Origin: Rubritepida flocculans DSM 14296
Lineage (GTDB): Bacteria; Pseudomonadota; Alphaproteobacteria; Acetobacterales; Acetobacteraceae
Assembly (NCBI RefSeq): GCF_000425365.1
Contig: NZ_AUDH01000003.1
Span: forward strand, 124,001 to 188,000
Length of the DNA: 64,000 nt
Direction of reading: 5' to 3'
Shown here: positions 33,647-61,100 of the stretch, in pieces
How positions within the stretch are numbered: position 1 is the stretch's first letter
How the letters are laid out: every line of letters begins with the position of its first letter
Program-made: the position numbers and the translations under genes
Notes under the pieces: model-generated
Databases searched by the model: none
Seen by the model: the letters and a program-made list of their open reading frames with translations, nothing else
Told to the model about the DNA's origin: nothing

Positions 33647-33737
33647 GCGCCCCCCTGCGCAACCGCCGTGCCAGGAAGCCCCTTGTTGCGGGCATGGATC
33701 AAATGGCGCGGATGCAATGCTGCAATGCAAAAGGTCA

Positions 33738-33766
33738 CTTGCATGCGAGCGATCTCCGGCCTACAT
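33738..33766 (+). promoter_or_regulatory. Alphaproteobacterial sigma-70 promoter for the small RNA
   Basis: CTTGCA at 33738-33743 and CTACAT at 33761-33766, spaced 17 nt, against the alphaproteobacterial pattern CTTGAC-N17-CTATAT (4/6 and 5/6 matches). It predicts a start near 33773, directly before the 5' stem-loop of the RNA. Confidence 0.6.
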
Positions 33767-33772
33767 GTGGGG

Positions 33773-33857
33773 GGCGGCAGGGATTTCGGTCTCTGCCTGC
33801 TTTCTTGGACGTTTCCTCCCTAAACTCGGCGGTGCGGCAACGCACCGCCATTTTTTT
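33773..33857 (+). ncRNA. Small RNA A, alphar8/MmgR-like
   Basis: About 85 nt in a 220-nt gap. Order: a 5' stem-loop (33776-33783 against 33790-33797, 8 bp with one G-U, loop TTTCGG), an unpaired part holding CGTTTCCTCCCTAAACTCGG (33810-33829), and a perfect terminator (33828-33857: 9-bp stem GGCGGTGCG/CGCACCGCC, loop GCAA, seven T). The same core and layout recur at 59455-59544. Size, layout and the TTTCCTCCCT core agree with what I recall of the alphar8/MmgR family of alphaproteobacteria. The CCUCC stretch can pair with Shine-Dalgarno sequences, so it likely represses translation. 5' end inferred from the promoter. Confidence 0.8.
33828..33857 (+). terminator. Intrinsic terminator of small RNA A
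   Basis: Perfect 9-bp stem 33828-33836/33841-33849, tetraloop GCAA, one A, then T7 (33851-33857). The strongest intrinsic terminator in the window. Nothing coding precedes it on this strand for 600 nt. Confidence 0.9.
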
Positions 33858-33865
33858 CGCCCCGT

Positions 33866-44359: not shown

Positions 44360-44446
44360 TGGTGCCCAGAAGAGGACTCGAACCTCCACGGCCTCGCGGC
44401 CACAGGTACCTGAAACCTGCGCGTCTACCAATTCCGCCATCTGGGC
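44360..44446 (-). tRNA. tRNA-Leu (anticodon CAG)
   Basis: An 87-nt cloverleaf. Acceptor GCCCAGA pairs with TCTGGGC; the D arm holds AATTGGTAGAC; anticodon stem CAGGT/ACCTG encloses TTCAGGT with anticodon CAG; a long class II variable arm follows; the T arm is GGAGG-TTCGAGT-CCTCT. Discriminator A, and CCA is encoded (44360-44362). It reads CUG codons, the commonest Leu codon here. Confidence 0.96.
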
Positions 44447-59218: not shown

Positions 59219-59316
59219 CGGGTTCGCGGCGCGAGTCGGGGAGGGCGCCCGCATCCCCGCGGGCCGCGCCGGGCCTGTTCGGCTCCGTCCCGATTGCGCC
59301 AGCCGGTGCCGCTGCC

Positions 59317-59365
59317 AAAAAAAGAGGCGGCCGCCGGTGATCTCACCGCCTGCCGCCTATCTTTT
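59317..59365. terminator. Bidirectional intrinsic terminator after the acyltransferase gene
   Basis: AGGCGGC (59325-59331) pairs with GCCGCCT (59352-59358), with an inner CGGTGA/TCACCG stem. An A7 run (59317-59323) lies before and ATCTTTT after, so it could stop transcription from either side. It lies about 100 nt after the acyltransferase stop. Confidence 0.65.
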
Positions 59366-59454
59366 AGTCATTCCCGGGGTTTTCGCCGGGATTTTCGCCG
59401 TCTGGCGGGCCGTTTCGGCGTTGAGCCCCCCCGGTCCTTTGCGGCAATGTCGGG

Positions 59455-59544
59455 TCAGAGAGAGGGTTTTCCTCTTTCTGCCGTGTGACTGGCGTTTCCT
59501 CCCTAAACTCGGGCCGCCCCCTCGCGGGGTGGCCCTTTCTTTTT
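59455..59544 (+). ncRNA. Small RNA B, alphar8/MmgR-like
   Basis: About 90 nt inside a 568-nt gap. Order: 5' stem-loop CAGAGAGAGG (59456-59465) with CCTCTTTCTG (59471-59480), one G-U, loop GTTTT; an unpaired part with CGTTTCCTCCCTAAACTCGG (59493-59512), identical over 20 nt to small RNA A; then a terminator (59511-59544). A weak promoter, GTTGAG (59420-59425) with an AT-poor -10 region near GGCAAT, lies upstream, so the 5' end is approximate. GGCGTTTCCTCC (59491-59502) is complementary to the ribosome region of the TctC gene at 52465. The remainder of the gap to proS (59545-59786) shows no gene. Confidence 0.78.
59511..59544 (+). terminator. Intrinsic terminator of small RNA B
   Basis: GGGCCGCCCC (59511-59520) pairs with GGGGTGGCCC (59526-59535), one G-U, loop CTCGC, followed by TTTCTTTTT (59536-59544). 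Confidence 0.88.
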
Positions 59545-59786
59545 CGTAAATGGTTCCGGGGGCGAGTTTCAAGCCTTTTCTTGCCCGATCAACGTGGTGC
59601 GGCGCAGCATTCTTGCGCAGTTCGGTGCGAAAAAGAAACGAGTTCCATGCCCCATGCCGTCGCCTGCACGCCGCCGCGCCCCCGCCCGGCCGCGGGGCCG
59701 GGCTGGACGCGGCCGGCCGTCGGGGACAGAAGCCCCGGAATCGCGGTAGCCTCCGCCTGCCGCCGCCTGAGAGGGGAACCCACGAC

Positions 59787-61100
59787 TTGCGCCTGACCCG
59801 TGCCTTCCTGCCCACCCTCAAGGAAACCCCGGCCGAGGCGCAGATCGTCTCGCACCGGCTCATGCTGCGCGCCGGGCTGATCCGCCAGACCTCGGCGGGC
59901 ATCTACACCTGGCTGCCGGCCGGCTGGCGCGTGCTGCGCTGCGTCAGCCAGATCGTGCGCGAGGAACAGGACCGCGCCGGCGCGCAGGAGCTGCTGATGC
60001 CCACCATCCAGAGCGCGGAGCTCTGGCAGAGATCGGGCCGCTACGAGGATTACGGCAAGGAGATGCTGCGCATCACCGACCGGCACGACCGGCCCATGCT
60101 CTACGGCCCGACCAACGAGGAGATGATCACGGACGTCTTCAAGGCCTACGCCACCTCGTACCGCGACCTGCCGCGCAACCTCTACCACATCCAGTGGAAG
60201 TTCCGCGACGAGCTGCGCCCGCGCTTCGGCGTGATGCGCGGCCGCGAGTTCCTGATGAAGGACGCCTACTCCTTCGACCTCACGAAGGAGGGCGCGCAGC
60301 ACTCCTACCGGCAGATGCTTTACGCCTATCTGCGCACCTTCGAGCGCATGGGCCTCAAGGCGCTGCCGATGCGCGCCGACACCGGGCCCATCGGCGGCAA
60401 TCTCAGCCACGAGTTCATCATCCTCGCCGAGACGGGCGAGAGCCAGGTCTTCTACGACGCCGAGCTCGAGAGCATCGACTGGGCCGGCGCCGCCTTCGAC
60501 TTCGACAGCGTGGCGGACATGCAGGCCTGCTTCGACCTCGCCACCTCGCGCTACGCCGCCACCGAGGAGATGCACGACGAGGCGGCCTGGGCCGAGGTGC
60601 CCGAGGCGCGGCGGCGGCAGGGAAGGGGCATCGAGGTCGGTCACATCTTCTATTTCGGCACGAAGTATTCCGAGCCCATGGGCCTCGCCGTCGCCGGGCC
60701 GGACGGGCAGATGGTGGTGCCCGAGATGGGCAGCTACGGCATCGGCGTCTCGCGCCTCGTCGCCGCCATCATCGAGGCGCACCACGACGAGGCGGGCATC
60801 AAGTGGCCCGATTCCGTGGCGCCCTGGAAGCTCGCCGTGCTCAACCTCAAGCCGGGCGATCCCGCCTGCGACGCGCTGGCCGAGCGCCTGCACGCCGCCT
60901 TCCCCGACCAGGCCGTGCTCGACGACCGGCCCGAGCGCGCCGGGGTGAAGTTCGCCGACGCCGACCTGATGGGCTTTCCCTGGCAGGCCATCATCGGCCC
61001 GCGCGGGGCGGCCGCGGGGCGGGTGGAGCTCAAGCGCCGCATGAGCGGCGAGCGCATGGAGCTCTCGCTGGAGGATGCGCTCGCCCGGCTCGCCGCCTGA
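59787..61100 (+). CDS. proS: Prolyl-tRNA synthetase, short alphaproteobacterial type
   Basis: A 437-residue class II synthetase charging tRNA-Pro. Motifs: [19 protein letters not shown], the motif 2 region [20 protein letters not shown], and motif 3 [16 protein letters not shown]; the editing (INS) domain is absent, as in the short alphaproteobacterial form. It starts with TTG at 59787 ([15 protein letters not shown] in the usual place), with GAGGGG upstream; no ATG fits. Its TGA overlaps the LolC/E start. Confidence 0.95.

Follow-up and report, generated by a model that had tools for sequence, protein, structure and literature searches.

An αr8-type small RNA gene upstream of proS in Rubritepida flocculans, most likely an old sibling of a second copy with differing upstream signals

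The closest described counterparts of the two small RNA genes considered here, A and B, are the SisA-D RNAs of Caulobacter crescentus (αR8). Like A and B these are dispersed siblings in which a UUUCCUCCCU core stands behind a weak hairpin and is followed by a terminator (PMC12559287). As far as the available part of that report goes, they have no shared upstream motif and one copy lies beside FGase, whereas B lies beside proS, and for B both targets and expression are predicted only. The same part of the report describes that the SisA core pairs with an mRNA 5'UTR near the start codon (compensatory mutations prove the pairing), that SisA acts with Hfq and that a sponge RNA, CrfA, counters it (PMC12559287). 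MmgR of Sinorhizobium meliloti belongs to the same family as A and B, RF00519; according to the accessible portions of the two reports S. meliloti has one αr8 gene, against A and B here (PMC7143759, PMC12542648). Control of mmgR by PhaR was shown in that species: the PhaR consensus is centred on YGCRNYGCR, and a PhaR/AniA site is present in the mmgR promoter, which is bound efficiently (PMC12542648, available part). A appears to have such a site as well, whereas at B it is found downstream only. Finally, SmelA075 and SmelA099 of Rhizobiales resemble B in their anti-Shine-Dalgarno motif and variable stems, but according to the accessible text they form three or four hairpins whose loops contain CCUCCUCCC, whereas B has one different core between hairpins (PMC3927594). 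CCTCCTCCC was not found in the B region, so B is not of the CCUCCUCCC-loop type. Among the titles listed in searches of the open-access literature, none dealt with A/B-type genes in Acetobacteraceae or with RNAs antisense to an αr8 gene.

The window analysed is a stretch of 64,000 nt of the R. flocculans DSM 14296 genome, in which a sequence-only reading had proposed two paralogous small RNAs sharing an exact 20-nt core. The main features are as follows.

33774-33856, plus strand: small RNA A, αr8/MmgR member (RF00519 match 33792-33864; predicted ends)
59456-59541, plus strand: small RNA B, αr8/MmgR member (RF00519 match 59473-59549; predicted ends)
59493-59512, plus strand: 20-nt core of B, the presumed seed, identical to that of A and containing the αr8 10-mer TTTCCTCCCT at 59495-59504
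59457-59479, plus strand: 5' hairpin of B from folding, formed in single folds of 19 orthologues, partly by G-U pairs
59511-59545, plus strand: intrinsic terminator of B, a 10-bp stem followed by TTTCTTTTTC, conserved in 19 loci
59787-61100, plus strand: proS, prolyl-tRNA synthetase (Pfam tRNA-synt_2b and HGTP_anticodon on open frame 59550-61100; TTG at 59787 taken as the start)

Both genes score above the curated cut-off of 41 bits in the Rfam covariance model RF00519 (suhB/mmgR, αr8), A with 49.6 and B with 48.8 bits. This bears out the two paralogous genes, and it places them in the already known αr8/MmgR family rather than in a new one. The shared core was also found as described: the 20-mer occurs without mismatch at 33810-33829 (plus strand) in A and at 59493-59512 in B, a search allowing up to three mismatches gave no further match in the window, and none appeared in 100 dinucleotide shuffles. 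Across the whole genome (3.83 Mb) the exact 20-mer is present at A and B only, next to one site with three mismatches.

A public survey with one genome per species yielded at least 117 stretches holding at least 118 instances of the 20-mer. Among the matches listed, 109 of 118 are followed on the 3' side by a hairpin of -8 kcal/mol or lower and then a T-rich tail; in seven of the nine others a T-rich tail follows a weaker hairpin (-6.6 to -7.9), and only L088 and one of the two instances in L097 are without such a tail. Among these matches the 20-mer is thus not scattered through unrelated sequence, the pattern that had been named beforehand as speaking against small RNAs. Among these 118 listed matches, neighbours within 1.2 kb include FGase in 47 cases, a transglycosylase gene in 13 and proS in 24; the FGase or transglycosylase group makes up 48, and 46 belong to none of these groups. 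Within the genus the 10-mer is invariant in the 21 A loci and the 19 B loci (10 of 10 columns in each set) and 2 of the 20 columns of the 20-mer vary in either set; the invariant unit is the 10-mer, not the 20-mer. Judged from the relatives described above, the UUUCCUCCCU core is the αr8 seed.

Orthologues are widespread. RF00519 matches at E <=0.001 in 94 of 120 genomes of the bacterial family, in a search whose filters lose weak matches, and at E <=0.01 in all 21 genomes of the genus. Flanking genes assign 21 loci in 20 genus genomes to A, with the transglycosylase gene in 21/21 and a cupin gene found in 13/21; at A both flanking genes lie on the other strand. In 12 public loci among the matches listed the small RNA lies between a transglycosylase gene and FGase, again both on the opposite strand. 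Since this is the same layout with the cupin gene replaced by FGase, A is the positional counterpart of the FGase-linked gene. The single FGase match of the genome (C3:258360-259046) is about 75 kb from B and about 100 kb from A. Linkage to FGase is absent at B; it is an αr8 feature reported as usual for single copies and not required of siblings. For B, 18 genus loci adjoin proS, and L196, assigned from its sequence because proS falls outside its stretch, makes 19. Of the 21 genus genomes 18 have both genes, and so do all 13 whose completeness is at least 95%; A is absent from G130 and B from G133 and G137, three genomes that are less than 90% complete.

The predicted fold of B has an energy of -40.8 kcal/mol (z -3.96) and consists of a 9-bp hairpin, a 4-bp hairpin, the open core and a 10-bp terminator. 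For A the predicted order is an 11-bp hairpin, a weak 3-bp hairpin that includes the first bases of the core, and a 9-bp terminator, so that 5' stem and terminator stem differ between the two RNAs, as had been proposed. Two αr8 hallmarks are thus predicted for B: the core is preceded by a weak 4-bp hairpin, and a Rho-independent terminator with a 10-bp stem follows it. The mean predicted probability of being unpaired is 0.89 for the 10-mer UUUCCUCCCU in B and 0.72 in A; an invariant and mostly open 10-mer is in line with the earlier suggestion of a fixed core suited to act as pairing seed. A terminator scan at B found one terminator against 1.0 expected in shuffles, so conservation in the 19 loci is the better evidence here. 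In the A alignment pairing holds for 96.8% of the stem cells, and 8 of 20 pairs, spread over both stems, have changed on both sides, values that none of 500 shuffles reaches; a third measure, the pair types, is reached by 11 of 500. These shuffles ignore relatedness, and the structure was taken from one of the aligned sequences. The notion of variable stems around a fixed core applies between A and B and to the terminators, but it fails within B, where the 14 nt preceding the core match the 10-mer in invariance across the 19 B orthologues (14/14, against 9/14 in A) and only two of 19 rows show variation in the 3' arm of the 5' hairpin. The 5' halves differ between A and B, and each is conserved inside its own set.

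Differences are also seen upstream of the two genes, where the following elements were located.

33721-33729, no strand assigned: PhaR/AniA-type palindrome TGCAATGCA upstream of A, matching YGCRNYGCR
33739-33767, plus strand: putative promoter of A, TTGCAT (33739-33744), 17 nt, TACATG (33762-33767), identified by eye in 21 A loci
59421-59450, plus strand: putative promoter of B, TTGAGC (59421-59426), 18 nt, CAATGT (59445-59450), identified by eye and from conservation in 19 loci

A consensus promoter scan found none at A or at B. The interval 59420-59544, given for B by the sequence-only reading, holds as the span from the putative -35 region to the T-run, but not as the RNA itself, which probably covers about 59456-59541. 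All 21 genus A loci have YGCRNYGCR at -88 to -93 relative to the TTTCCTCCC motif; a search of the 130 nt upstream finds it in 0/19 B loci, 0/10 other core-bearing loci and 2/9 loci of D, a relative described below (background about 0.3 per stretch). Only the 9-nt centre is kept: the full 21-nt PhaR consensus with AT-rich arms is found in just one of 21 A loci. Among the public matches listed, an upstream site is present in 29 of 47 FGase/transglycosylase-linked loci (47 of the 48 listed were used), 4 of 24 proS-linked loci and 23 of 46 others, against shuffle expectations of 1.0, 0.5 and 1.0, respectively; the 18 FGase-group loci without a site include five named Reyranella. The genome contains both a phaR-type gene (PHB_acc_N) and hfq. 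An extended A-type PhaR pattern matches exactly at A and with one mismatch at three further sites, none of which, judged by eye, is at a PHB gene. Given the PhaR/AniA-type site upstream and the FGase/transglycosylase locus known elsewhere, A is probably tied to carbon storage. The unlike upstream signals suggest that A and B may be under separate control.

The earlier expectation of further family members in the genome is met by two relatives, C and D, both below the RF00519 cut-off (38.2 and 31.3 bits). A genome search at E <=10 gave 11 matches, namely A, B, C, D and seven others (E >=0.18) that were taken as noise. C (G000:C1; L003:1478-1564) carries TTTCCTCCC and lies between a short-chain dehydrogenase gene, which resembles phbB though Pfam does not identify it as such, and metW; among the loci retrieved, two of the 21 genus genomes have it at that position. 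D (L004:1493-1574; G000:C5:89553-89635) lies between ispDF and a thiolase gene in nine genus genomes. Its core is altered yet invariant, CAGCTTTGCCTTCCTCAACCTTG, and promoter-like sequence, hairpin and terminator are conserved, while the seven loci scanned score 26.8-32.4 bits, all under the Rfam cut-off. A model built on D matches 39 of the 120 genomes of the bacterial family at E <=0.01, including G000 and two of the same genus, and reaches at least 48 bits (48-61) outside the genus in four genomes only; many weaker matches are ordinary αr8 genes or unrelated sequence. At about 1500-1600 in L307 and L312, weak D-model matches coincide with a hairpin plus a stretch rich in purines, for example GGGAGGGAGGAG, and may mark another anti-Shine-Dalgarno type of small RNA on the other strand. 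The window also contains an 84-nt tRNA gene at 44363-44446 on the minus strand.

We propose that B, located between plsC and proS, has a promoter of its own and yields a transcript of about 86 nt, and that its single-stranded UUUCCUCCCU core would pair with purine-rich ribosome-binding sites and thereby block translation, probably assisted by Hfq. B would then be an old paralogue of A, probably with the same seed but responding to unlike signals. If the seed is indeed common, A and B would have many targets in common.

Candidate targets can be read from sites matching the seed. The genome has eight AGGGAGGAAA sites: A, B, five just before start codons and one without a start codon near. The five start-linked genes encode two TctC receptors, a GlpX fructose bisphosphatase, a PLP-dependent decarboxylase and a DUF5368 protein. 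Across 13 genus genomes AGGGAGGAAAC occurs at 56 sites, 27 of which are αr8 genes by place; of the 29 others 17 sit 0-9 nt before a start codon and 10 have no start in range, two at a spacing of 15-16 nt being left out of the count of 17. These 17 comprise nine TctC genes and one other solute-binding protein according to Pfam (L262 was not scanned). The control motif AGGGAGACAAC, in which the seed match is broken, is rarer in the same genomes (5 sites against 29). All five control sites precede a start codon, and three of the five genes encode solute-binding proteins, none of them TctC. As the seed is an anti-Shine-Dalgarno sequence, placement at start codons is expected of any similar motif, and since this small control gave three solute-binding proteins out of five, no enrichment of transport receptors among the targets is claimed. 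Duplex energies, with shuffles made for B only, were likewise set aside as target support: one duplex, with the TctC gene on C9, has an energy of -36.1 and is below all 200 shuffled targets, whose minimum is -33.4, and the other four of the five candidate sites are within the shuffled range. The start-linked genes are therefore target candidates only. Two TctC receptor genes in two genus genomes (L257 and L271) have near-identical starts, with AGGGAGGAAACGA 7 nt before the start codon.

Two other explanations of B can be weighed against this. Having a terminator ahead of an aminoacyl-tRNA synthetase gene is a classic attenuator layout, and B might accordingly be a terminator-bearing cis leader of proS, comparable to a T-box, rather than a trans-acting RNA. 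B is indeed co-oriented with proS in all proS-linked loci (18/18 in the genus; 24/24 public ones among the matches listed), with 197-303 nt separating the core from the proS start in those 15 of 17 aligned loci for which a start was found (from 19 B loci, L196 was not given and L188 was lost to a position filter). Nonetheless, searches of the window at the gathering threshold and of 3 kb around B at E <=1 gave no T-box or leader family, a TAGG(G/T)T element seen by eye near proS suggests a separate proS promoter, and the same core, stem order and terminator recur at A, where the flanking genes are on the opposite strand, and beside FGase elsewhere. We therefore consider a leader very improbable. 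That A and B are fully redundant copies maintained for dosage would agree with their identical core and similar layout, but it sits poorly with a PhaR-type site upstream of every A locus and no B locus in the genus, and with 5' halves that are unlike and separately conserved; this explanation, too, appears improbable. A trans-acting αr8 small RNA with its own promoter and a seed that blocks ribosome-binding sites, regulated differently from its paralogue A, is in our judgement very probably the best overall explanation of B.

A search for the proS promoter brought up conserved blocks between B and proS that include signals on the minus strand.

59544-59572, minus strand: promoter-like element facing B, TTGAAA, 17 nt, TTACGA
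59598-59606, no strand assigned: PhaR/AniA-type palindrome TGCGGCGCA between B and proS, i.e. downstream of B
59316-59357, minus strand: terminator-like hairpin with a run of seven T
59318-59541, minus strand: hypothetical antisense RNA opposite B, 224 nt between its predicted ends

The pattern CTTG-N18..22-TA directed toward B is present in 19/19 genus B loci and 0/20 A loci, and among the public matches listed in 14/24 proS-linked, 2/48 FGase-group and 3/44 other loci (shuffles 0.2-0.5; the counts cover 20 of the 21 A loci and 44 of the 46 others, the rest having too little downstream sequence). A PhaR-type centre lies between B and proS in 18 of 19 genus loci (1.0 in shuffles) and, among the matches listed, on the same side in 16 of 24 public proS-linked loci (1.9), 9 of 48 (5.2) and 6 of 46 (3.6) elsewhere. 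A hairpin with a T-rich minus-strand tail follows 218-223 nt from the promoter-like TA in all 19 genus B loci, and the predicted RNA ends are 221-226 nt apart. Six outer pairs of this hairpin are kept in 19/19, two of them with base changes, and the next four pair in 6-15 of 19. A strict stem search recovers it in only 3/19; the looser search that gives 19/19 was designed after the alignment had been inspected and was confined to a 90-nt stretch. No open reading frame is common to all 19 predicted antisense RNAs, and short frames occur in six.

It is possible, though doubtful, that B lies wholly inside an opposite-strand unit that has a promoter, PhaR-type operator and terminator of its own and yields an RNA of about 225 nt, which could act as a carbon-storage-controlled sponge for the siblings. 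Such an RNA would contain AGGGAGGAAACG, which is fully complementary to the core shared by A and B; AGGGAGGAAACG also complements the core of C in all but one base, but not that of D. In having a purine-rich stretch complementary to the αr8 core it would resemble CrfA of Caulobacter, which the available part of the report does not describe as antisense to an αr8 gene (PMC12559287), and the nested unit could be a CrfA counterpart encoded opposite a member of the family. There is about an even chance, however, that no antisense RNA exists and that the signals are parts of other units, with the PhaR-type site belonging to proS and the hairpin to the upstream gene. By eye the hairpin is often close behind the stop of the upstream plus-strand gene, the folding energy is lower on the plus strand in three of the four loci folded and in the alignment fold (Alifold), and the distance of the PhaR-type site varies in other genera. 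Three pairwise tests of co-occurrence, uncorrected for relatedness, gave P values of 0.03, 0.21 and 0.20, so that among the matches listed (24 public loci) the promoter-like element is not significantly associated with the terminator (0.21) or the PhaR-type site (0.20). Against separate units stand the T-rich tail on the minus strand, the terminators at the matching place in 14/24 proS-linked against 4/92 other public loci among the matches listed (92 of 94 such instances used), and the spacing of 218-223 nt between promoter-like element and T-run, which survives a change of neighbour, as plsC is upstream of B in only two of the 19 genus loci.

Summarizing, B is most likely a conserved second αr8 small RNA gene, an old sibling of A that differs in its upstream signals, and it extends the αr8 family within Acetobacteraceae. 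If the opposite-strand unit is real, it would represent a sponge that is encoded antisense to a family member and linked to PhaR, and the nested arrangement would join storage sensing to post-transcriptional control. A and B represent an old syntenic split: two copies with one seed and unlike upstream signals. Whether αr8 siblings act redundantly or independently is a question raised in the available part of the Caulobacter report (PMC12559287), and with clear orthologues of both A and B this question becomes testable.
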